Below are positions 8,766-21,488 of a stretch of 25,971 nucleotides of DNA, piece after piece (within the stretch, counting starts at the first letter, position 1; each line of letters starts with the position of its first letter). The notes beneath the pieces were generated by a model. That model ran no database searches, was not told the origin of the DNA, and worked only from the letters and a program-made list of their open reading frames with translations. The DNA comes from a virus: positions 1 to 25,971 of IMG/VR virus record IMGVR_UViG_3300032313_000135; one strand, given 5' to 3'. Position numbers and translations under genes: made by a program.

Positions 8766-9427
8766 TATGCCTCTTCCAGTGTTAAGGACACATTCCAGAA
8801 GTCAAAGTTTAAACCACTTCTTTTTTGAACTGAGTAACTAAAGTCTGAGAAAAACATTTCAATTACTTCGTTATATTTGTTTGTATTTTTAAACCTTTCG
8901 TCTGAGTTAACAGTTTCAAAAACATCTTTAAAGTTTGTATATTTATCGTAGGCTAAGTAGACCCAGAAAGATCCACTGTGATTTTTATACCAGTCAAGGA
9001 GTTCTACTCCACCTGCTCCACCATCTGTAGTAAACTCTAAAGGGTTTGTTCTTATCTCTGGAATTTTTGTCATATTAGGATTTCCATCAGAATCAAAGCC
9101 AGCATAGGTATCAAATGCTCTAGACGGCAACATATCCCAGGATACTGTTAATGTTAGTTTATCTGCAGTATGATAAGATCTCATACGGCCATTGATCATT
9201 CTCTCCCGTTTTTCAATTCTGGTGGTCTTAAAGTCTATGGGTGACCTATTGTTATCAGAAAGGATTAAGAACTCGCCATAGCCATCTACAGAGGCTCCTA
9301 ATGACCCAATCTCGTCTCCTTCAGGGATGTGAAAACCATTTACCTTGATACCCTCGTTATCTGCAAAGAGGATCCCTTGAGGTCTTTGATATTTCTTACG
9401 ACCTGCCATATATGCATTAGTTGCCAT
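8765..9427 (-). CDS. Distal-tail-like minor tail protein
   Basis: This is a 220-aa protein encoded directly after the tape measure gene and before the hub, the classical place of the distal tail protein that joins tube and tip. It is beta-rich, with KLTLTVSWDMLPSRAF and SFWVYLAYDKYTNF, and ends in a strand pattern FDFWNVSLTLEEA typical of tube-like folds. The N-terminus is basic (YMAGRKKYQRPQ). Length fits the single-domain distal tail proteins of siphophages. The ATG shares one base with the tape measure stop (TAATG at 9429-9425), and GGAG lies inside the tape measure C-terminus, so translation is coupled. Function is inferred from gene order and general pattern. Confidence 0.76.
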   Translation of the reverse strand: MATNAYMAGRKKYQRPQGILFADNEGIKVNGFHIPEGDEIGSLGASVDGYGEFLILSDNNRSPIDFKTTRIEKRERMINGRMRSYHTADKLTLTVSWDMLPSRAFDTYAGFDSDGNPNMTKIPEIRTNPLEFTTDGGAGGVELLDWYKNHSGSFWVYLAYDKYTNFKDVFETVNSDERFKNTNKYNEVIEMFFSDFSYSVQKRSGLNFDFWNVSLTLEEA

Positions 9428-12400
9428 TAGGTTCTAACTCCTCTCATCTTTTGTGCGTCAACGCTCTTTATCTGAGCAATAACGGTTCTTGCAATTTCAT
9501 CTGGGTTTGATTCAGATTTAACGTTTACACTAATACTATAATTATACACTGCGTCACCTGCTGCTTGGCCATTATTCATTGCCTGCATCTTTCCTATACC
9601 GTGGGACTGTACAGCAAACTTATTCATTACAAACTCTCCAGGAGTGAGCATTGCTGGAACTGTGTCAGTTCCCATGTTAAATTTCTTTTGTGCAAACTGA
9701 GAAGAAACAAGGCCTCCAGTAGCATAGCCTGTCCACTTGTATATATTTCCTGACTTTGATGATGTTTCTTCATCTAGAGCGTTAGTTTTACCACCAACTT
9801 GCCATGCCACTTGTTCGTTAGTAAATCCAAGAGACTTTAGGGCTTTTCTTGCATTATCGACTATTATGTTTTGGTCTTTCATATTTCCTTGAGCAACTTC
9901 TACATTGTCCCAAGCAGTTAAAAGTTCTATTTTTGCATCTGGCCTAGTTTCTTTTAAAAACTCTTCTCTTCCATCAGTATCTTTATAATCCCATGTTTTT
10001 CTTGCAGCACTTAAAACTTTTCCTGCAGCCATTAAAGACTCTCTGTTTGTTTTAAAGTCTTTGTCTGCATTTTTTAGTATGCTAAAAATATTTTGCAATT
10101 CAGCACTAATTTCTTTTTCTTTTGCTGCCTTGAATGTTTTTGCTCCTTCTGAGTCCATTGGCGATGCATTAATATAACTAGGTTTATCTGCAGTACCAAT
10201 GTTCCTTTGTGTAAAAGATGTTGCATACTCTTTTGCTTTTACGTATTCGTCCCAAAGTTTTCTGGCATCTTCTTTAGCCTTTCCTGAAAGTTTTTTAATA
10301 TCGCTTTCTTTAACAACCTTCATAGTCACAAGTTTTTGCTGAAGTTGAAATGCTTCTCTTTCTGCTCTCTGTTTTTCTAGTGTTATTGAAAGTTTTGATC
10401 CAGCAGAAACTGCTGCTTTATCTGTTTTTGCTAATTTTGGTGCTGCAGCAGGTTTGATTGGTACATACTTAAAGGATCCTGGTTTATACCCTGCTGTTCC
10501 TGGAACATTCTGACTTGAAGATCCTGGCACTTGGGTTCCAGGAATTGGAACTACATTGTTTGACCCACCAGTGGTTGTGCTATTATTTCCAGTTCCTGAC
10601 CCACCAGTTGTAGACTTTCCACCAGCATCACTTGTTACTGGTCCTTTTATTTTAGCAGAATTATAAATATCATTTGCAGCATTTTGTGTAAGATTATTGT
10701 AATTTGTGTTTGGATCATCTGCTGCAGAAGTTGGTCCTGTTATTGGTGCTTTTGGTGCTCCATCTTTCCACTTTTGATTAAATCCACTTTGTAAAGTATC
10801 TACTAGCCACCATTGATTTTGTGATTTTGCAGACTCAATTGCTTTTAGTTCTAGGTCATACTGCTCTTTTTTAATCTTATACTCAGCCTCTGCTGCTGCT
10901 TGTGCTGCTTTAGCATCTGCTGCTTTCTTTGCTGCAAGTTCTTCAAGTCCCTGTGCTGTTGTTTTAAATTCTTGCCTTAATGCATCCATTGCTGTTCCAG
11001 ATGCTGCTGCTGAAGCAGAAGAATATTTAGACATTGTGTCCTCTATCTTGCCCCAGCCTTTTTCAATCTCATCAACTGAAGCAAGCATTGAACCCATTAG
11101 TCTATCAAAGTCTTGTCCAGCAACGGCGGAAGCATCTATCTTGGCTCCAATAGCATCCCAGGCATCCTTTGTTTGTCCAAGAACAGTTATACCGCTTACT
11201 AATTTTTCTATAGCCCGTTCATCAGTTGCAATCGCAACATTGTTTGCATCAATACTGTATTGTCTTGGCTTTATTTGTTTTTCTGTTATATCGTAAATCT
11301 CATCTTCTTGTTTACGGATAGCCTCTTGTGCTGCTTCTCTTTTTTCTTCAAGGTCGTAAATCTTATCGCTTGTATCTTGTATTTGTTTTAGGATTTCAAG
11401 TCTTGTAAGCAACTTACCATTTACTTCTGTTGTTGCTGTATTTTCTAGAGTATAGATTGTCTGAGCATTTTGATACTGTCTCTCAGTAATTTCGTCTTTG
11501 CTTAGTCCTGAGACCTCGCCTCTCAAACTATCTATCTTATTCTTACGAGATAGTTCTAAAGCCTTAGAAGCATTCTCTGCATTACGTGCTGCTTGGGCTG
11601 CTCTTATAGCCTGGACTGCACGGGCTGCTGCACCAATATCTCCCTTAGAGAGAGCATCTGCTAAGTCAAGTTGCTCCTTTTCTTGCTCAACAATCTGACT
11701 CTTAATTTCTGAAACCTTAGCAAGTGCTTCTGCTTGTTCGTCATATCTCTTATTAATTTCTTCTGCAGCATGATTCATTTTTTCCATATCATTAGACAAG
11801 ATTGTGTTTTCTGCATTGATCTCTGCTATAGGTCTTTCAAATGCTACCTCAATGACTCTTTGAAGATCGTTTATGCTTTCTTGATAGGCTTCAAGAGGAC
11901 GAGTGATATCCATCTCAAGCGCTCTTGTTGCTTTCTGAATAGCCTCTTCAATTGGACGTATCTTGCTAAAGGTTATTTGTTGAATCTCAAGTTGTAAATC
12001 TTCATTTGCATTCTTAAGTGTTTTAATATTTGCAACCATAGATTTAGATGCTGCACTAGCACCAGTTCTAATTAACGCTTCCTGAACTGAGAACATCTTG
12101 TTAACAAGTTCCATACCTGGTGCTGCTGCTGCAGCAAAATCCCCAGCATTAAACTTAGCACGAATTTCTACAATCTTTTCATCTTTTATACCCTCAAGGT
12201 ATTCAGCAATTGCCTTAGAGTCTATCTTTCCATCTTCTAGGTCTGCCATTAATTGCTTGGCCAGCGCTGGGTCTGAAAGAACTGTTGCAATATTTTCAGC
12301 AGACATACCTGATATCTTTAATGCAGAAGCGAGTTTAGGGAAGGTGTCGTTCTTAAATTTAAAGTCTGCATTCTTCTTTAATAGGTCTGCCATAACTGCA

Positions 12401-15400
12401 GCCTTCTCTGTTGCATTGGCAGCATTTATTGCATCATCTGAGAACTTCTTTAGGTCTGTTCCTGCTAATGCTGAAGAGGCTACTGAGGCTGCTAGTGCTG
12501 AATCTGAAACTAATTCCAATGCAGTTGCTGTATCTACTCCTGACGCCTTTAATTTATTAAATGCTTTAAATTGATTATCAGCATCAGTGATTACCTTTAC
12601 TTGTGCAATATTAAACTTATCAAGTGGGGCTTCATTGTATGCTGCAATGACAGCCTTACCCTCTGCGGATATTCCAGTAATCCTTGTTTTATCATATACA
12701 ACATTGCCTTTTTTATCTTTTAATACATTACCCTTTTTATCTTTCTTGGCTGCATATGTAAAGACTCCTTGCTGTCCAGCCTTCTTGCTATTAAGATCGG
12801 CCTTTAGTAACTCATCAAACTGTTCTGCATCTAAACCAGCAATATAGTCTCTAAATTCTTCTGGAACCTTTAGTGCAAGAAGTTTTTGTTGAACACCATC
12901 AAATAGTTTAAACATATTTGCAACATTCTTCTTTGCAGCAGGACTATTAAATGCTGCAAGCATGGACTCAATTGGCTTCTTGGCATTAAAAGATTGGTCT
13001 CTTACCATCTTGATACGCATAGCAAGTGAATCAAGGAAGTCTAGTGGATCATCTTTCTTTCCTCCTGAACCAGGAGTTTTGGCAGGTCCTGCATCAACTG
13101 AAGTAACGCCACTTGCATAGGTAGGAACTAACTTTTCAGCAGCCATCTGCTCAGGAGTTAGTTTTAAGAATGCTGCTTTAAACTTTGCTTCTGCCACTAG
13201 GAGAGCGTCTGCTCCTGCTGCAATTGTTCCCTTTGACTGTGCAAGCCAGGCCTGGTTTCTTGCATAAAGTTCTGCTGCTGCTTCTTTTTGCTCTTGAGTA
13301 AGGATTGATTCATAGGCAAATTGTGTTTGAAGTTTTTGTAAATACTCTGCCTGTTGCTCTAAGTTTAGGTTATTGAACTGAGCCATTCTTTCTTCATTGG
13401 CTTGTAATGCTGTAATGGCTGCATTTTCTTGTGGCCCCAATTTTTTGGCAGCCTCAAGATCCATCTTCTTATCGCCTTTTTTCTTTTGCTCTTCTTTAAG
13501 TTTTTCAATACCTTCCATCTGGCCCTTAAGAACTTCAAGGCCTTCTAGACCAAGGGTAGTCAACAAAACCTCCATGTCAATGGTTGTTCCATCCAGAGCC
13601 TGAATACCCTTAAGTGCTTCCATAATTGCATCAAACTGTCCTGGGTCTGTTTTTGTTAATGCAATCTTGGTAACCATATTTGTTGCCATTTTTTTATCTT
13701 TATAGCCTGCAAACATGTTTAGGAGTTCTTTTGTTTTTGATGTTCCATGAATTCCCACACTTGCATTAAAAAGTAAGTCTAGATTATTTAGTTGTCCAGA
13801 AAAAAGTTCTAAGTAGTTGTTTGCTTCTGATGGACTTAGAACTTTACTTCCAACAAGCATTTCCCATTTTGCTTGGAAGGTTTGTGCTGTTTTATTATCC
13901 TTTAAGCCATTAATTGACTTATTGTCTGCAAAGTCTTCTGATGTATTTAAGAATGTTTTTGATGCTTCTTCTTGGTCAGTTCCCTTATAGTTTGTTAATA
14001 GTTGATTTCTGGATGCATCAAAGTAAGCATCTTCTTTACCACTAAACTTTGAACCACTGTAAACCTTTTCAAAACTCTTTTGCTGTAAACCAATCTGTGT
14101 AAGAAGTAGGCCGTTCATTGTATTTGTATCTATAACATTTTGAGCAGTAAGGTCGGATATCTTCTTCTCAATTTCTAGTTTCTTTGCTGCGTTTGCAGTT
14201 GCTGCTAACTCTGCCTCAAGTTTTTTCTTTTGATTTTCATATTCAACTTGTACCTGATCTGCCATCATCGTGGCCATCTGAATATTATTCATGTTATATG
14301 CTGCGATGGATGCAATGTTTTCTCTTCGATTTCCCTTACCTGCTGCAACGTCATCTTCTGCTTTGTCAACTCTATTGTTTGCGTTAGCCATTATTAGCGC
14401 TCTAGTATCCATAGGACTATTCTTTAAGTCTTCACCGTTTGGACCTAGAAGTGCAGATAGTTGTCCAACAATTTGCATCTCAATCTTTTGATCTTTTAGT
14501 TGCAAAGCAAGTTCTGCAGCAATACTGTTTGCTGCCTGTGCATCAAGTACTCCGTCTGCAACGGCTGTAGCAAGTTTTAATGATAGATCATCAACTGCTC
14601 TTGCGGATCCAAACTTCTTAGCGTTGTCTTGAAATAACTTCTTTTCTTTTTTACCAATGTCTGTACCTAAGAACTTATTACCAAATGTATTATCAATTTT
14701 AATTTCTTCATCATACTTACCGTATTGGCTAGTTGATCTACGCTTATCCATGATTTCAGATGCACCAACACGTCCTGCCATCTCACCTATTGACTTTAAG
14801 CCATCTCTTGTTGCTGAAAGATCTGTTGCAAATTGTGCTGCTTTTTTAGCCATATCATTAAAGTGCTTGTTAAGCATATAGGCTCCTGCACCTAATGCTA
14901 CAACTGCTCCTACTGCAAGTCCTATTGGTCCTGTACCCGCAATCATTGGAGCAAACTGTGCTACCGTTGCTGCTGTACCTAATGCTGCCGTTACCTGTGG
15001 TGGTGCTCCTGCCATACCTGCGACCATTGCTGCTGTTCCTAGGCCACCAGAAACTTTACCAGAAAACTTGGAAACCTTCTCTTTACGCAAGCCACGCTTC
15101 TTTTTCTTTAATTGGCTTTCGGTAAGAGTTGTTGGCTCCCCTGTTTCTGGGTCAAACAGTATTTGTCCCTTTTTGTTTTTTGTATAACCAACCTGTCCTG
15201 GATCATCTGGGCCATTAGTTCCTGGGTCTCTTCCCATTGCTTCGTCATATGCTCTTGTATAGTCGTATGCCTTGGTCTTATCAATATACTTGCTATCTGA
15301 CTGTGCTCCGTCAGGAATAATTGCACTTGGATCTTTCATTCGTGCAGCAAGTTCTTGTCGTCCCAACTCTCTTATCTTGCGCTTGTCTTCTTCAATGTCT

Positions 15401-18400
15401 CTATTTATGTCAGCAATGTTTTCTGAAGAACCTGCAATATCATCTTGTGCTATACCTGTTGTACCTGTTGACTGAAGAACATCATTCATATTTCCTGTAG
15501 TAGCATCTGTTATCTGTGCACCAGTTAGCAGGTTTCCTGCAGTTTGTGTTTGAGCATCAACTGCTTCTCCAGTTACGTTTGCAAGTTCATCTGTCTGTTC
15601 TGCAACCATAAGAGTTGAGTCTGCTGTATCTTCTGTACCTTCAACAATGCGTCTTAATCCATCACCTTGTTCTTGTGTTCCGTTAGATACAACTTCATCA
15701 TTCTTGTCTTGAATTTTTTGAACTTTACCTGGTTCTTTTACATCATCTTCTGATATATCTATCCCGCTCTCAAGTTGAATTGCCTCAATCTCTGCTTCTG
15801 CTGCCTTTATTCTTAACTCTGCTGCTTTGGCCTCTAATTCATCCGCCTTCTTTTTAAGTGCTTTAGCGTTATCAGCAGTGTAAATGTTCTTGCCATCTTC
15901 ACGGGCTGCAACCTCTTCCCACTTTGCTGCTTCAGTTCTAACTCTTGCTGCTGCTGCTTCTGCATCAGATGCTTCCTTATTTAGTCTGTCTGCTTCTTCA
16001 CGAGCCTTACCAATATTAATGGTGTTACCCTTAATGGTAACTCTTGACTTACTTTGATCCCTGATCTGTTGTACAACCTGTGCCTGTGCCGTTGCAGCCT
16101 GCTCTGTACTTACTGCTAAATCTTCTGCTGCTGCTTCTGTTCTTGCTGTTAAAGCAACTGTTGAAGAAGGTCCTGATACTGGAGGAGTTCCTGGACCACC
16201 ACTAATGCCTGCTTCTTTGGCACGTTTTCTTCTTTGTCTATCTTGTGATTTAAGAATTTGTCTTTCTTCACTAAATTCTGGGGTATTGATATCATCGTAG
16301 AAAGATTTATTGTCAAGGTCCATCTTGTCAACTCTTGCCTGTGTTTCTGCTGCTGTTGGTACTGCAGCAGACCCTAGTTTTTTAGCCTGAGAAGAGACTT
16401 CTGCGGAATGTTCTTGCATTCCAATAACAATTCCGTCTGCAACACTTTTACCAATCTCCCTACCCTTTTTAGAAGGAGAACCTCTGTCTACTCCTTCTGG
16501 ACCTTCGGCTCCGTCAATTACTGCTTGACCAACCTCTGCTCCTGCTGCTGCTGCAGCAGCCGTGTCTTCTGGTGTAACCTCTACTGTTGGTGCAGGGGTT
16601 ATTATTTGTCCTGCACTAAGTCTTTCTCTATTTCTTAGTTTTTCTACAATTGCTCTTTCAGTATCTGTTACTCCACCCTTTTCTGATGCAATTGGCTCAG
16701 AATAACTTGTTCCAACCTCTCCACTTTTTATGTGTGCAAATGTTGGTTTACTTCCTTTTTCATCTGTTTGTTCTGGTGGTGTTATGCCTCTTCGTGCATA
16801 CTCTCTTTCTGTATTTCTCTTTGTTTGATCATCTAGATACTCTGACATGGAGTGTCCAGGAATTGCAACTCTTTCTGTTCTTATATCGGTAATTCTTTCA
16901 TTACCATCTTCATCAATTCCAGTCTCAACTCTTTTGCGGTTCATAGCAACTGCATCTCGACCAGGATTTTCTGGTGTTCCTAAATCTGCATCAAATATTC
17001 TTCGTGCAGCAATCCTCATCTTTTCTGCTTCATCAGCAGTAACCTTTAAATCTCTTTCTAGACTGTCTATATATGCAACCATCTTTGGGTATGCAGTTTG
17101 ACCCGCTTCGCTAACATCTGTTACTCCTGGAACTACTTCTCTTGCAAATATGTTTGCAATCTCATCAAAGTGAGGGGCTAGGTGCTGGTTAGATTTAGTC
17201 CACATATCAAATGACTCGTCTGTTTGCCTTGCAATGCCATCAAGGGCCTGCATCTGAGTTACCATTGATCCTGTTGTTGCTACTTTAAACCTGTCTGATG
17301 CACCTACTATTTCTCCTGATTCATCTTTTTTAGTAATAAATCTAGAATCTCCTCCAGCAATAGTAGATCCTTGAACTGGACGGCCTTGTATGTTTCCTGG
17401 CATCATGATAGCAGCGCCAGACATTAACTTTGTATCTTGTTCACCACCTGCTACTCTACCCGTATGTGGTTGTGTAATTGTATACTTTGGCTTCCTTGGG
17501 TGTGGGTGTTCGTGAAATTCTCCAGTACCTTTGTGATATCTATTTACAGATCCATTTTGAAGTGCTGCTACTAATTCTGGATTTTCTTTTGCAGTATCTT
17601 TTGTAATAACAACTTCGCCAGGAGTTAGTAATGCTGGGACAGTATCTTTATTTCCTGTACCTGGAACGACTCCACCTGTTGCAAACTTTGTAGGAGGTAG
17701 TCCTGCTACTGCTCCTGCTGGTCCTGGTACAGTATTGAATAATCCTGGAGATGATTGAGCAAGGGCTCTTGCCTGACTTGCTGCTGCGCCGTAGGCTGCT
17801 GCTAATGCTTGAACTGATGCTGCTTCAACATTAAATGTAGAAATTAATTGGCTATGAGATGTATGTAAAGCATTAGACTGTGCAAGGTTTTCAATCTGTT
17901 GGTTGGTTAGATACTCAAACCCTCCGCCAAGAACATTGTTTGAACCATTAAGTTGAGCAACTCCGCCACGGAGTTTTGCAAACAACTTGATACCATTTGC
18001 AACAAAGTTCATTAAAACACCAAATGTCATTAATAGAACTGGAGCAAGTCCTCCAACAACTCCAACAACAACTGTTATAACTTTTTTAGTTCCATCGCTT
18101 AAAGTGTTAAATTTTTCTAGGATTCTTCCAACAAAACTAACTATAGGTGTTACTGCTTCTAAGAATGCTTTACCTATTGGAACAAGTTGGAGTTTAATAT
18201 TTTCCATAGACTTCTTAAACTTGTTACCAGTCATGTCTTCAACCTTGCCAAGTTCTCGCTCAGACAAGATTGCTAATTCTTCAACTGATGCTCCTGCAAG
18301 TCCAAGTGCTCGTGCAGCCTGTGAAGAATCTTTTGTAACGTTCTGGAATAGTGTAGACAGACGAGCAAACTGGAACTTACCAAATAGTTGTTCGATTGCT

Positions 18401-19734
18401 CTTGCACGGTTAAGAGGATCAAGTGTATCTAATGCTCTTGCAAATCCTACTACAGTTCCTTTTAGATCTCCCTTGTTTGCTTCAACAAGTCCGTTAATAT
18501 TAATTCCCAGTCCCGCAAGAAATTCACTAGCCTTCTTAGAAGGGTTAATCATAGAAGCAAGACCAGACTTAAGTGCGTTAGCACCTTCTGATGCGTTGAT
18601 TCCACCTTCCTTCATTGCAGTCATAAAGAATGCAAGGTCTTCTACGTCACCGCCTAGTTGCTTAACAACTGGTCCAGCCTTTGGAATAGCAATTGTTAGA
18701 TCTTCAATAGACAAGACTGTCTGGTTTTCTACTGCGTTAAGGAAGTTAATTTTTCCTGCAAGATCTTCTGCTGCGATTCCAAAAGCATTTGTTAAAGAGA
18801 TTGTTGTCTCTAGCGCTTGCTGTTGTTCAACTTGTCCAAGAACGGCAAGGCGTGTTGCTTGAACTATTTGAGCATTAAGTGCATCTCCAGTAAGACCCAT
18901 CGCTGCTGCTGTTCCAGCCATTTCTACAGTATCTTTTGCTGCAATACCAAACTTAGTAAACTCTTTTGCAAGTCTCTGAACATCTGCAATAGCCTTGTCA
19001 GTTGCATCTGAGTTTGTCATCATGTCTCCATATACTCTGGAGAACTTTGTTATTGCCTGCTCCATTTCCATGAATGTTTTTGCTGCAGTTGAGCCTAGAA
19101 TTGTAAGTGGAATAGTCAAACCAACCATCAACTGGCGACCTGCCCACTGAGTATTCTTACCAAAATTCAGAAGTTGAGTTGAGCCTTGACTTAATAGTTT
19201 ATTTAAAAATTGCTGTCTTTGTGCAGCCATTTGCATACGTGTTGCATAATCTGTATACTGACCATTGACCATCTTTAGGTGCTTTGGAATAACCTGAAGA
19301 GTCTTGATCATATCTCCATTTGCAGACTGCATCTGGATATACTGAGCCTGTAGAAGTTTTACTCTATCTTTACTAGCACGTGTTAATGTCTCACGCTCTT
19401 GTGCAAACATCCCTTTAAATACCTTGGTATTTTGGGTGGCTGCTGCTGCGGTGTACCTAAAGTACTGTCGCATTGATAGTTGATTTTTTTCAAGTGCTTG
19501 TGTAAAAGAAGATGTACTTGTGGCTACATCCTTTTGAGTTGCAACAAACTTTCCAGTTGCATTAATAGCCTGCATTAACTGGCTATTAAGGCCCTTCTGG
19601 GCATTCATTGCTGCAACGTTACCCTGAGTTAGGGTTTGATTAAAACGGCTAAGTCCTGCCTGTAACTGACGTAATTGTGCTAAGGCTTGGCTGGTATCAA
19701 AATTAATACCTATATTTGCGTTTACGTCAGCCAA
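9427..19734 (-). CDS. Tail tape measure protein, TP901 type, 3435 aa
   Basis: This protein sets tail length and passes into the host at infection. Residues about 220-490 match the TP901 tape-measure core (EQAITKFSRVYGDM, ETTISLTNAFGIAAEDLAGK, LTIAIPKAGPVVKQLGG, FAFFM-like and NASEGANALKSGLASM segments). Hydrophobic stretches at about 545-590 and 1555-1625 could insert in the membrane. A GSPSKKGREIG motif lies near 1085, and coiled coils near 1230-1310 and 2575-2900, including LADALSKGDIGAAARAVQAI. A Gly/Ser/Thr/Pro linker spans about 3035-3105. The motif DTVPA(L/M)LTPGE occurs twice, near 696 and 3358. I see no lysozyme or NlpC/P60 motif. Start is TTG (19734-19732) with AGAGG 8 bases upstream and an in-frame TAG just before. 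At about 0.15 nm per residue the tail would be about 515 nm. Confidence 0.96.
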   Translation of the reverse strand: MADVNANIGINFDTSQALAQLRQLQAGLSRFNQTLTQGNVAAMNAQKGLNSQLMQAINATGKFVATQKDVATSTSSFTQALEKNQLSMRQYFRYTAAAATQNTKVFKGMFAQERETLTRASKDRVKLLQAQYIQMQSANGDMIKTLQVIPKHLKMVNGQYTDYATRMQMAAQRQQFLNKLLSQGSTQLLNFGKNTQWAGRQLMVGLTIPLTILGSTAAKTFMEMEQAITKFSRVYGDMMTNSDATDKAIADVQRLAKEFTKFGIAAKDTVEMAGTAAAMGLTGDALNAQIVQATRLAVLGQVEQQQALETTISLTNAFGIAAEDLAGKINFLNAVENQTVLSIEDLTIAIPKAGPVVKQLGGDVEDLAFFMTAMKEGGINASEGANALKSGLASMINPSKKASEFLAGLGININGLVEANKGDLKGTVVGFARALDTLDPLNRARAIEQLFGKFQFARLSTLFQNVTKDSSQAARALGLAGASVEELAILSERELGKVEDMTGNKFKKSMENIKLQLVPIGKAFLEAVTPIVSFVGRILEKFNTLSDGTKKVITVVVGVVGGLAPVLLMTFGVLMNFVANGIKLFAKLRGGVAQLNGSNNVLGGGFEYLTNQQIENLAQSNALHTSHSQLISTFNVEAASVQALAAAYGAAASQARALAQSSPGLFNTVPGPAGAVAGLPPTKFATGGVVPGTGNKDTVPALLTPGEVVITKDTAKENPELVAALQNGSVNRYHKGTGEFHEHPHPRKPKYTITQPHTGRVAGGEQDTKLMSGAAIMMPGNIQGRPVQGSTIAGGDSRFITKKDESGEIVGASDRFKVATTGSMVTQMQALDGIARQTDESFDMWTKSNQHLAPHFDEIANIFAREVVPGVTDVSEAGQTAYPKMVAYIDSLERDLKVTADEAEKMRIAARRIFDADLGTPENPGRDAVAMNRKRVETGIDEDGNERITDIRTERVAIPGHSMSEYLDDQTKRNTEREYARRGITPPEQTDEKGSKPTFAHIKSGEVGTSYSEPIASEKGGVTDTERAIVEKLRNRERLSAGQIITPAPTVEVTPEDTAAAAAAGAEVGQAVIDGAEGPEGVDRGSPSKKGREIGKSVADGIVIGMQEHSAEVSSQAKKLGSAAVPTAAETQARVDKMDLDNKSFYDDINTPEFSEERQILKSQDRQRRKRAKEAGISGGPGTPPVSGPSSTVALTARTEAAAEDLAVSTEQAATAQAQVVQQIRDQSKSRVTIKGNTINIGKAREEADRLNKEASDAEAAAARVRTEAAKWEEVAAREDGKNIYTADNAKALKKKADELEAKAAELRIKAAEAEIEAIQLESGIDISEDDVKEPGKVQKIQDKNDEVVSNGTQEQGDGLRRIVEGTEDTADSTLMVAEQTDELANVTGEAVDAQTQTAGNLLTGAQITDATTGNMNDVLQSTGTTGIAQDDIAGSSENIADINRDIEEDKRKIRELGRQELAARMKDPSAIIPDGAQSDSKYIDKTKAYDYTRAYDEAMGRDPGTNGPDDPGQVGYTKNKKGQILFDPETGEPTTLTESQLKKKKRGLRKEKVSKFSGKVSGGLGTAAMVAGMAGAPPQVTAALGTAATVAQFAPMIAGTGPIGLAVGAVVALGAGAYMLNKHFNDMAKKAAQFATDLSATRDGLKSIGEMAGRVGASEIMDKRRSTSQYGKYDEEIKIDNTFGNKFLGTDIGKKEKKLFQDNAKKFGSARAVDDLSLKLATAVADGVLDAQAANSIAAELALQLKDQKIEMQIVGQLSALLGPNGEDLKNSPMDTRALIMANANNRVDKAEDDVAAGKGNRRENIASIAAYNMNNIQMATMMADQVQVEYENQKKKLEAELAATANAAKKLEIEKKISDLTAQNVIDTNTMNGLLLTQIGLQQKSFEKVYSGSKFSGKEDAYFDASRNQLLTNYKGTDQEEASKTFLNTSEDFADNKSINGLKDNKTAQTFQAKWEMLVGSKVLSPSEANNYLELFSGQLNNLDLLFNASVGIHGTSKTKELLNMFAGYKDKKMATNMVTKIALTKTDPGQFDAIMEALKGIQALDGTTIDMEVLLTTLGLEGLEVLKGQMEGIEKLKEEQKKKGDKKMDLEAAKKLGPQENAAITALQANEERMAQFNNLNLEQQAEYLQKLQTQFAYESILTQEQKEAAAELYARNQAWLAQSKGTIAAGADALLVAEAKFKAAFLKLTPEQMAAEKLVPTYASGVTSVDAGPAKTPGSGGKKDDPLDFLDSLAMRIKMVRDQSFNAKKPIESMLAAFNSPAAKKNVANMFKLFDGVQQKLLALKVPEEFRDYIAGLDAEQFDELLKADLNSKKAGQQGVFTYAAKKDKKGNVLKDKKGNVVYDKTRITGISAEGKAVIAAYNEAPLDKFNIAQVKVITDADNQFKAFNKLKASGVDTATALELVSDSALAASVASSALAGTDLKKFSDDAINAANATEKAAVMADLLKKNADFKFKNDTFPKLASALKISGMSAENIATVLSDPALAKQLMADLEDGKIDSKAIAEYLEGIKDEKIVEIRAKFNAGDFAAAAAPGMELVNKMFSVQEALIRTGASAASKSMVANIKTLKNANEDLQLEIQQITFSKIRPIEEAIQKATRALEMDITRPLEAYQESINDLQRVIEVAFERPIAEINAENTILSNDMEKMNHAAEEINKRYDEQAEALAKVSEIKSQIVEQEKEQLDLADALSKGDIGAAARAVQAIRAAQAARNAENASKALELSRKNKIDSLRGEVSGLSKDEITERQYQNAQTIYTLENTATTEVNGKLLTRLEILKQIQDTSDKIYDLEEKREAAQEAIRKQEDEIYDITEKQIKPRQYSIDANNVAIATDERAIEKLVSGITVLGQTKDAWDAIGAKIDASAVAGQDFDRLMGSMLASVDEIEKGWGKIEDTMSKYSSASAAASGTAMDALRQEFKTTAQGLEELAAKKAADAKAAQAAAEAEYKIKKEQYDLELKAIESAKSQNQWWLVDTLQSGFNQKWKDGAPKAPITGPTSAADDPNTNYNNLTQNAANDIYNSAKIKGPVTSDAGGKSTTGGSGTGNNSTTTGGSNNVVPIPGTQVPGSSSQNVPGTAGYKPGSFKYVPIKPAAAPKLAKTDKAAVSAGSKLSITLEKQRAEREAFQLQQKLVTMKVVKESDIKKLSGKAKEDARKLWDEYVKAKEYATSFTQRNIGTADKPSYINASPMDSEGAKTFKAAKEKEISAELQNIFSILKNADKDFKTNRESLMAAGKVLSAARKTWDYKDTDGREEFLKETRPDAKIELLTAWDNVEVAQGNMKDQNIIVDNARKALKSLGFTNEQVAWQVGGKTNALDEETSSKSGNIYKWTGYATGGLVSSQFAQKKFNMGTDTVPAMLTPGEFVMNKFAVQSHGIGKMQAMNNGQAAGDAVYNYSISVNVKSESNPDEIARTVIAQIKSVDAQKMRGVRT

Positions 19735-19747
19735 GGACTATACCTCT

Positions 19748-20071
19748 TTACTTGATTGAGTTTAAAAGACCTGATGCGTCAGAAAGTTGCATTCCTGAAG
19801 CAGCATCAATGATCTTATAGACTGTAGGAAGATCTAAATTTTCCTCAATCGCCTCTCTGTTGTCTGCAATTGCAGGCAAGTATTGTTTAAATGCAATTTG
19901 TACACAGTCAATAAGAATGTCCATTGACTTGCTATTGTCGTCTGCAACTTCTTGCAGTTTAGTAAAATGTTCCATAAAAGGCTTAAGCAAAGATATCCTT
20001 AGTGGCTTAACCTCAAATTTTGTTCCATCCATAAGGGACAGTTGGTTCTTGCTTTCTACTTCTTTAACCAT
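19748..20071 (-). CDS. Short tail assembly chaperone (G-like), 107 aa, start revised
   Basis: The product resembles the N-terminal half of the 227-aa chaperone encoded just upstream. Shared positions include L-x-DG, PL-x-I-x-x-L, M-x-x-F, a C then I, KQ-x-x-P-x-I, EE, and the Y-x-I-x-D-x-x-x-G-x-x-x-x-D-x-S end. Such proteins coat the tape measure protein before tube polymerisation. The frame opens at ATG 20083, but the bases just after it form GGAGG (20081-20077), an ideal Shine-Dalgarno 5 bases before a second ATG at 20071, while the first ATG has no site of its own. I therefore start at 20071. It lies 13 bases upstream of the tape measure TTG start. It appears to be a separate gene for the short form that most phages make by not frameshifting. 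Confidence 0.82.
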   Translation of the reverse strand: MVKEVESKNQLSLMDGTKFEVKPLRISLLKPFMEHFTKLQEVADDNSKSMDILIDCVQIAFKQYLPAIADNREAIEENLDLPTVYKIIDAASGMQLSDASGLLNSIK

Positions 20072-20076
20072 GATTT

Positions 20077-20081
20077 CCTCC
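20077..20081 (-). promoter_or_regulatory. Ribosome binding site deciding the start at 20071
   Basis: GGAGG on the minus strand, spaced 5 bases (AAATC) from ATG 20071. The alternative ATG at 20083 begins 2 bases before this site, so initiation there would use the site itself as coding sequence. This is the basis for the revised start. Confidence 0.65.
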
Positions 20082-20095
20082 ATTGTAGTTGTTTA

Positions 20096-20104
20096 ATTAT
20101 ACCA
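20096..20104 (-). promoter_or_regulatory. Extended -10 promoter before the short chaperone
   Basis: TGG-TATAAT (TG at 20104-20103, TATAAT at 20101-20096) lies in the 48-base region between the two chaperone genes. Predicted transcription would start near 20089 and give a leader of about 18 bases carrying the GGAGG site. The nine bases are identical to the box at 2329-2321. No convincing -35 is visible. A promoter here would let the short chaperone and the tape measure be expressed apart from the long chaperone. Confidence 0.45.
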
Positions 20105-20119
20105 TAAACAGGCTTGTTT

Positions 20120-20803
20120 TTAGTCTACTTTTTCGTAGTCTAGCCCCATACCAATTCCAAATCCAGCCTTCTGTGCACTAATACCCTGAAGGGCAACGAT
20201 GTCTTTTGCATTTGCTGCTTGGCCACCACTGAACACTCTAGCCTTCATTTCTTCCCAGGCATTTCCTTTTCCAGAATTTTTGTCTAGGTCGACACCCTGC
20301 ATTGCTGCAAGGAATTTCTTTTCATCGTAGTTTAATTCTCTGCTAATAGAAAGAGTTATCATTAACTCTGGCATAGACAAGGATGTTTCTAGTTCGTTGT
20401 AGTCTTTCCAGATCCCCAACAAAAAAACTTCTGACTCTAATTTTGCAAGGTCAAGGTCATCCCAAGATGATCCACTATCAACTGCTTGCTTTTTTACAGG
20501 TTCTTCTGACTTATCATTAATCTTAATACCAGCAGTTATATCTAAGATATCATAAATGTCTTGTAGGCTAACATATTCTTCTAGCATCTCTTGGGTTTGA
20601 GTAATCTCTGGTCTAAACTGTTTCATACAAATTCTTGCACATTTTGACAGCGCTATAATTGCTTCCATATCCCCTTGAGCATTTCTAACTTCATCAAAGT
20701 TATCCATTAACTGCCTAAGATATTTTATTTTTAGGGGGGATAACTCTATCTCTACTCCATCTTGAAGAGTAATATTTTTTGTATTATAAACTGTTGTTGC
20801 CAT
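20120..20803 (-). CDS. Long tail assembly chaperone (fused GT-like), 227 aa
   Basis: Residues 1-98 form a G-like domain (LQDGVEIELSPLKIKYLRQL, MKQFRPEI, DIYDILDITAGIKI). Residues about 120-227 form a T-like domain with SMPELMITLSISRE and KKFLAAMQGVDLD, a pattern known from frameshift-made GT products of siphophage chaperones. Here both domains are in one uninterrupted frame. The codons for V103-K104-K105 (GTA AAA AAG) contain the slippery heptamer A AAA AAG at the domain boundary; a -1 slip would add Ala-Ser-Ser and stop at TGA 20480-20478, giving 108 aa. GT-type proteins bind tape measure and recruit tube subunits. The ATG has no Shine-Dalgarno, and a TGT-TATACT box ends 6 bases before it, so leaderless initiation is likely. 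A homopolymer miscall in the A run would change this picture. Confidence 0.88.
   Translation of the reverse strand: MATTVYNTKNITLQDGVEIELSPLKIKYLRQLMDNFDEVRNAQGDMEAIIALSKCARICMKQFRPEITQTQEMLEEYVSLQDIYDILDITAGIKINDKSEEPVKKQAVDSGSSWDDLDLAKLESEVFLLGIWKDYNELETSLSMPELMITLSISRELNYDEKKFLAAMQGVDLDKNSGKGNAWEEMKARVFSGGQAANAKDIVALQGISAQKAGFGIGMGLDYEKVD
20489..20495 (-). other. Candidate -1 ribosomal frameshift site (A AAA AAG)
   Basis: On the minus strand the frame reads CCT GTA AAA AAG CAA GCA GTT, so the heptamer A AAA AAG is in the X XXY YYZ register used for -1 slippage; the same heptamer works in E. coli dnaX. After the slip, the next codons are GCA AGC AGT TGA. The shifted product would be 108 aa, close to the 107-aa paralogue. 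No strong upstream Shine-Dalgarno-like stimulator is seen. The nearest downstream hairpin is weak (TCATC/GATGA with a TTGG loop, 20470-20457). Confidence 0.5.
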
Positions 20804-20809
20804 CTATAT

Positions 20810-20818
20810 AGTATAACA
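20810..20818 (-). promoter_or_regulatory. Extended -10 promoter, probable leaderless start for the long chaperone
   Basis: TGT-TATACT (TG at 20818-20817, TATACT at 20815-20810) is followed by 6 bases (ATATAG) and the ATG at 20803. The spacing is the same as at the gene starting at 2314. There is no Shine-Dalgarno. The box lies directly after the hairpin that ends the tail tube transcript, as if to restart transcription at a new level. Confidence 0.5.
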
Positions 20819-20822
20819 GAAA

Positions 20823-20848
20823 GGCCCAGACTTTTTAGGATCTGGGCC
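20823..20848 (-). terminator. Rho-independent terminator-like hairpin after the tail tube gene
   Basis: The minus strand has GGCCCAGA, a 10-base loop and TCTGGGCC: a perfect 8-bp GC-rich stem starting 22 bases after the tube stop codon. It is followed by TTTCTGTT, which is only moderately U-rich, so read-through into the chaperone and tape measure genes is likely. Partial termination would favour the high-copy tube protein. Confidence 0.72.
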
Positions 20849-20870: not shown

Positions 20871-21488
20871 TTATGCTGCGCCGACTGTGCGGTCTACGAT
20901 CTTACCGTATGATCCGTTGTCGTTTGGAAGAAGACGGAATGATACTTCGAACATTGTCGCTTCGTCACGCTTTGCTGATACTGAAACGCTTTCAATTGAA
21001 AGTGCACGGTATGCAACGTAAACACGCTCCACGTTAAGTGATGCGTCTCCAGTTCCTGGTCCAACTGCAATCAAACCACGCTCTACTGGCACATCGCCAA
21101 TATCGCCTGCTGAAAGATTAAGTGTTGGGTGTGTAGCAACTGTTGTTAGATCGCTTTCCTTGCCTGCAAGGGCAAATAGAAGGTTCTCTAGTGTTGATTC
21201 TGCGAATGTAGTATTTAGGTTTACCTGCATGCCTTGCTTAAATAACTTAGCAACGTCAAGTACCTGGTCTACTGCTACTTCACCGAAATCTGGCTGGAAT
21301 TGGATTTCCAAACCATTCATTGTATATCCAACGTTACGGAAGTCTGCATCATTTGAAAGGGTTTCCTTGTATGATGTTCCTGCTGCGAATGCTGGACGAT
21401 CTGCGTCTGCAAGTGCGCCGTCTTCATATGTGAAGAGGGCTGCTGCTCCAACGATAATATCGTTTGAACTACCACGTGTATATGCCAT
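20871..21488 (-). CDS. Major tail tube protein
   Basis: This 205-aa protein forms the stacked rings of the tail tube. It sits between the tail terminator and the chaperones, the standard place for this gene. The fold is mainly beta, with an N-terminal arm (MAYTRGSSNDIIVGAAALFT), a long polar loop around residues 25-55, and C-terminal strands (SVSVSAKRDEATMFEVSFRL) typical of tube proteins. Codon use is strikingly different from the tail-tip genes, with many C/G-ending codons, as expected for a very abundant protein. The leader carries a strong GAGGTGA Shine-Dalgarno about 7 bases before the ATG. A TATAAT lies further upstream and a terminator-like hairpin follows the gene, so it may be expressed partly as its own transcription unit. 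Confidence 0.9.
   Translation of the reverse strand: MAYTRGSSNDIIVGAAALFTYEDGALADADRPAFAAGTSYKETLSNDADFRNVGYTMNGLEIQFQPDFGEVAVDQVLDVAKLFKQGMQVNLNTTFAESTLENLLFALAGKESDLTTVATHPTLNLSAGDIGDVPVERGLIAVGPGTGDASLNVERVYVAYRALSIESVSVSAKRDEATMFEVSFRLLPNDNGSYGKIVDRTVGAA

Follow-up and report, generated by a model that had tools for sequence, protein, structure and literature searches.

Tailed phages nearly always retain the frameshift that yields the tail assembly chaperones G and GT, in preference to two genes, and the reason for this is an open question. In phage lambda, about 30 copies of gpG for each gpGT cover the tape measure protein, a ratio that is critical, and tail tube subunits are brought in through the T part (PMC5009743); frameshifting of this kind is widely conserved in long-tailed phages, T4 excepted (PMC5009743). 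The question is raised anew by the minus strand of the window, i.e., the whole stretch of 25,971 bases of an IMG/VR virus record that was analysed, where two open reading frames lie between the major tail protein gene and the tape measure gene (Table 1). The first one, GT, carries both chaperone domains without any change of frame, and the second one, G2, resembles the short chaperone. How a phage of this type could obtain its short and long chaperones, and in what proportion, is the subject of the present analysis.

According to profile searches, residues 1-106 of GT correspond to phrog_10504 and residues 131-219 to phrog_10474, whereas G2 matches phrog_10504 only. The two domains sharing one frame certainly represent a real fusion, and both this fusion and the separate 107-aa paralogue, likely the short form, had been correctly recognized by an earlier reading made from the sequence only. 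Such an organization has the features of a G/GT pair, flanked by the major tail protein gene on one side and the tape measure gene on the other, and consisting of a long form made of the whole short-form domain followed by a C-terminal T domain, except that the short form is here a paralogue encoded by another gene. G2 reaches 107 aa from the ATG at 20071 and 111 aa if translation starts at 20083; it is 30% identical to the N-terminal half of the fusion in the window, and the identity between the two G copies, G1 and G2, ranges from 30 to 37% overall. No Pfam chaperone model matched GT or G2. The nearest annotated homologues of both halves, with 35-45% identity and a matching gene order, occur in Streptomyces phages of the Stanwilliamsviridae (Faust, BillNye, MulchMansion), where they are annotated as tail assembly chaperones. 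These phages differ from the window in having a single G gene with T in the -1 frame, hence two reading frames, and the heptamer C CCA AAT in Faust and BillNye. With respect to the predicted structures, AlphaFold models of GT (pLDDT 75.9) and G2 (pLDDT 78.1) were compared with PDB chains, among which the HK97 chaperone gp13 (2OB9) ranked first for GT (Z 4.6, 81 residues, 4.5 A) and second for G2 (Z 3.9); at 7-11% identity, these Z values are too low to prove a shared fold, and the modelled resemblance, too weak alone, is consistent with a chaperone. Foldseek alone gave no significant match, and a profile search of PDB sequences returned chance matches only.

Table 1. Features of the tail chaperone locus and its surroundings, in window coordinates.
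Feature	Position	Strand	Basis and remarks
Fused long tail chaperone GT (G1 and T)	20120..20803	-	227 aa, ATG start, one reading frame
G-like half G1, residues 1-106 of GT	20486..20803	-	phrog_10504, E 2.9e-18; separate, faster-evolving G clade
T-like half of GT, from S-S-W-D-D-L-D	20123..20470	-	phrog_10474, E 7.6e-13; alignment
A AAA AAG heptamer, in register	20489..20495	-	sequence and relatives; not conserved
TGA ending the hypothetical -1 product at 108 aa	20478..20480	-	position not conserved
N-D-K-S-E stretch, where split relatives have the slippery C CCA AAY (N-D-P-N)	20504..20518	-	
GT start: extended -10 TGT-TATACT, 6 nt, ATG	20804..20818	-	predicted leaderless; no Shine-Dalgarno
Terminator-like hairpin with T-rich tail	20823..20848	-	between the major tail protein gene and GT
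Short chaperone G2, separate gene	19748..20071	-	107 aa; phrog_10504, E 3.1e-18; tree; zero-frame-like tail
G2 start region: extended -10 TGG-TATAAT, GGAGG Shine-Dalgarno (20081-20077), ATG	20069..20104	-	
Major tail protein (context)	20871..21488	-	phrog_2175, E 7.2e-33
Tape measure protein (context)	9427..19734	-	3435 aa; named by size and place after the chaperones; annotated tape measure protein at the matching position in Streptomyces phages

The sequence-only reading had assigned the short form to a reversed frameshift of the type known for E. coli dnaX (tau/gamma), in which the full reading gives the long product and a -1 slip on A AAA AAG the short one. As a sequence potential, everything it described is exact, including the register and the coordinates of the heptamer. 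Codons 103-109 of GT read GTA AAA AAG CAA GCA GTT GAT, with a run of six As, and a -1 slip would read GCA AGC AGT TGA, adding Ala-Ser-Ser to 105 residues to give a product of 108 aa that stops 4 codons on, near the domain boundary. The same A_AAA_AAG is the dnaX site of E. coli, in which it shifts very readily (PMC5009743). In relatives that retain the fusion, however, the heptamer is frequently broken, sometimes by synonymous changes, which is the outcome that the same reading had named as refuting its proposal. In relatives sharing 88-95% protein identity its place is taken by GTA AAG AAA, GTT AAG AAG, ATT AAA AAG or GTA CAA AAA, and only 9 of the 18 distinct close relatives retain a canonical heptamer, which is AAAAAAA in 7 of them; the distance to the -1 stop amounts to 3, 4 or 12 codons over these 18 sequences. 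In the genes of the window, 54 heptamers of the X XXY YYZ type stand in register among 8261 codons, and in-register examples occur in 34 of the 180 fused linkers, as compared with 25.8 +/- 4.5 expected when synonymous codons are redrawn. The possibility that a frameshift is concealed at another point of the fused linker was discarded on account of this near-chance rate. No stem-loop stimulator is apparent in the 84 nt past the heptamer (z = +1.0, with 170 of 200 shuffles folding as well), and no dip in synonymous variation marks the junction across 179 fused sequences; an apparent dip at codons 91-101, seen with the 18 close relatives, disappeared over the 179. In addition, a dedicated short gene, G2, accompanies the fusion in every listed sequence that extends far enough downstream. 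Fused genes thus differ from a programmed -1 frameshift, T not being in the -1 frame and the slippery heptamer not being conserved, and they differ from dnaX by the unconserved heptamer, the lack of a stimulatory structure and the existence of a separate short gene. A dnaX-like slip is therefore very improbable and the heptamer most likely incidental: the observation was right and the mechanism wrong. Annotators are warned by this example that a lone in-register heptamer should not be called a recoding site.

A miscalled A run had also been considered, in which case the fusion would be a sequencing or assembly error and the true T would lie in the -1 frame, as it does in more distant relatives. 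A homopolymer does stand at the junction, but each of the 180 distinct fused sequences, which come from independent contigs, has an uninterrupted frame with varied codons, many of them lacking any A run, and the 80 IMG/VR relatives of the fused protein that were retrieved likewise continue in one frame. These relatives refute an artefact of this kind, the probability of which is negligible.

To place the locus among its relatives, loci, including those of five additional scans centred elsewhere, were classified by means of G- and T-domain profiles; most of the T-domain scans of IMG/VR returned at least about 600 stretches each. Among the matches listed, 316 distinct G-T sequences were found, of which 180 are fused and 136 split, these counts referring to sequences and not to independent events. 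The module exists in two states. Among the matches listed, G2 lies directly downstream of the fusion in 172 of the 180 fused sequences, the remaining 8 breaking off no more than 150 nt past T, whereas a second G was found in none of the 136 split sequences, 130 of which extend for at least 450 nt after T. In all 136 split sequences among the matches listed, Streptomyces phages included, T is in the -1 frame. Near the end of G, 155 of the 170 split loci among the matches listed possess an X XXA AAN heptamer (68 of 69, 54 of 68 and 33 of 33 loci in the three batches), which is C CCA AAC/T or G GGA AAC/T, with one C CCA AAA, and usually stands about 12 codons before the G stop. The C CCA AAY recoding site, found in split relatives only, is located at K-L-N-D-P-N, about 6 codons upstream of the place of the window heptamer. 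It is absent from the window, and the fused proteins mostly read N-D/E-K-S-E-E at the corresponding place. The loss of this site, like the fusion itself and its association with a second G, is directly visible in the sequences.

The near split phages, equally devoid of a second G, comprise L311, L320, L323, L326-L341, L344, L355, L364 and L436 on the one hand, and L317, L406, L411-L413 and L430-L435 on the other hand; in L320 and L323, T leads straight into the tape measure gene. Two canonical heptamers, C CCA AAY or G GGA AAY, are found at one place when L166-L242 and L311-L364 are set against the second of these sets. Since the split relatives use either of the two, the slippery site must have been exchanged at least once without loss of frameshifting. 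Fifteen loci of one Streptomyces-phage group (L083, L246-L257, L259, L260) have T in the -1 frame without a canonical X XXY YYZ near the G end. A hairpin, CTAGNTGG...AACTAG, occurs in 77 of 133 split sequences versus 3 of 180 fused ones; it was not retained as independent proof of a stimulator, the stretch being coding in two frames in split phages, and folding in the split L320 and L166 is no better than in shuffles. In L271, L274, L275 and L296 the G domain match falls in two pieces, as if some 36-105 nt had been inserted inside G. Bacterial genomes gave a single match, the split phage L165 (CAINGU010000031.1, 109,918 bases), in a metagenome-assembled genome labelled as an uncultured cyanobacterium; this contig is probably a mis-binned phage, or else points to an unexpected host, and says little about the hosts of the group.

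The two types of genes also differ in their start signals. A match to the Shine-Dalgarno over 5 nt or more precedes 98% of the split G and 94% of the G2 genes versus 1% of the fused genes (1/178). Upstream of the fused gene, an extended -10, most often TATACT or TATAAT, ends exactly 6 nt before the ATG in 104 of 144 distinct upstream regions and 5-7 nt before it in 83% of them, versus 1% in shuffles, a spacing never encountered in split G or G2, where the extended -10 (TGnTATAAT) mostly ends 22-30 nt before the start. In the window, these two arrangements are exemplified by TGT-TATACT-ATATAG-ATG for GT, and by TGG-TATAAT, 14 nt, GGAGG, 5 nt and ATG for G2. The GT start thus has the characters of a leaderless gene, lacking a Shine-Dalgarno and having its -10 end some 6 nt away from the start codon. 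A -10 hexamer placed at this distance is expected to make transcription start on the ATG itself, and the GT mRNA is accordingly predicted to be leaderless. Leaderless mRNAs are common in Actinobacteria and account for 20% of the genes of Corynebacterium diphtheriae (PMC5784534). Actinobacterial hosts are suggested for these phages because their relatives are Streptomyces phages. A leaderless start alone does not mean a weak one. A second gene of the window, 1871-2314 on the minus strand, is also predicted to be leaderless, as TGGTATAAT at 2312-2329 ends 6 nt ahead of the ATG and a Shine-Dalgarno is lacking.

The explanation that probably accounts best for these observations is that a duplication followed by a division of labour has replaced the programmed frameshift, the G:GT ratio being set by initiation. 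The fused gene would encode GT outright, with no slip needed, and the short chaperone G would be supplied by G2, the gene lying just before the tape measure gene. G2 would have kept the layout of the split relatives, i.e., an extended -10, a gap of about 25 nt, a Shine-Dalgarno and a zero-frame type of tail, without the slippery site, and G1 would be a diverged second copy of G, fixed in one frame with T. An extended -10 belonging to GT itself would give rise to a leaderless mRNA, and two promoters combined with two kinds of translation start, not a rare -1 slip, would fix the ratio of G to GT. From its consensus -10 and its Shine-Dalgarno, G2 would be the abundant short form; from its less consensus -10 and leaderless start, GT would be the rarer long form. 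We infer that both genes are expressed, that their products are made in such a ratio and that G2 and GT co-assemble. It is rather improbable that G2 is instead a second chaperone serving a different client, in which case proteolysis or some other route would provide the fusion with its short form. The low identity of G1 and G2 leaves room for different partners, and other routes to a short form are known for dnaX, e.g., proteolysis in Caulobacter (PMC5009743), but the start signals, the length, the tail and the tree position of G2 are those of the G of split phages, and among the matches listed G2 appears only where the frameshift has gone.

With lambda and most other long-tailed phages, the locus has in common its place between the major tail protein and the tape measure, the G/GT pair and a T fused to G; it differs from them in that GT is read without a slip, G comes from a separate gene and no slippery site is conserved. 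Vladimirov, Gautam & Davidson 2022 (Virology 566:9; cited in PMC10885494) reportedly propose, to judge from the title, that the chaperone forms of T4-like phages arise otherwise than by frameshifting, a feature that they would share with the window. The authors of PRFect found many SEA-PHAGES genomes without an annotated frameshift chaperone and suggested incomplete annotation (PMC10885494). No report of a duplication with leaderless and leadered starts replacing a frameshift was found in a literature search, most subscription papers being outside its reach. If the division of labour between G2 and GT holds, the locus offers a clean case, in a large family, of a duplication after which each product of a formerly recoded gene has a gene to itself. 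Between relatives that use the frameshift and those that do not, a single locus differs, in a countable manner, by the fusion, the second G and the start signals. This allows a direct test of whether phages require slippage just to set the ratio or in order to have G and GT come off one mRNA.

The direction of the change was approached with trees of the three genes. In the G tree, G2 groups with the near split G (93/89; mean identity 57%), and G1 forms a separate clade (99/96), with 41% identity to the near split G, outside G2 plus near split G; the mean identity within the clade is 0.46 for G1 versus 0.60 for G2. An AU test did not reject G1 and G2 as a single clade (p = 0.21), so that the duplication may have preceded or followed the lineage splits. 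The T tree runs from far split to near split to fused phages, except that a split subgroup, L413 and L430, is nested within the fused clade, next to L428 (97/96), and the major tail protein tree places L311, L320 and L323 next to a fused phage. From the three trees taken together, a reversal, a second fusion or a recombination must have happened somewhere; the state would thus have changed at least twice, or the genes recombined, and each switch may have gone in either direction. For L413 and L430-L435, taken with L428, a return to frameshifting or a recombination is possible. The nesting of L413 and L430 in the T tree and the position of the near split phages in the major tail protein tree would also suit a fused two-gene state that is ancestral or was acquired by recombination, the near split phages being reversions. 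This is unlikely, as the far split lineages, cultured Streptomyces phages included, share a slippery site of the same type at the same position, and as frameshifting is so widely conserved in long-tailed phages (PMC5009743). The split state is inferred to be ancestral; G2 would be the source of the short form and GT the scarcer product. A more far-reaching version of the replacement of the frameshift by duplication, in which the control of the ratio has moved from slippage to leaderless versus Shine-Dalgarno-led initiation, the swap has been undone at least once (L413/L430) and the two solutions interconvert, is tentative and rather doubtful.

The loss of two Cs from GAC CCA AAT CT would yield GAC AAA TCT (D-K-S), and the fusion may therefore have arisen inside the old slippery site. 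The tails of G2, e.g., KLSDASLLGNLVNN and GIKLSDASLLGNLVNN, are similar to those read in the zero frame in split G, e.g., KLNDPNLLGAALVGTN and GLKLNDPNLLGAALVGTN; in the G2 C-termini, other codons stand in place of the P-N pair of the slippery site. In L033, the C-terminus of G2 departs from that of its close relatives from ...SGMQ onwards (RLLMRLESLLQRRKM), as by a frameshifting indel or a sequencing error.
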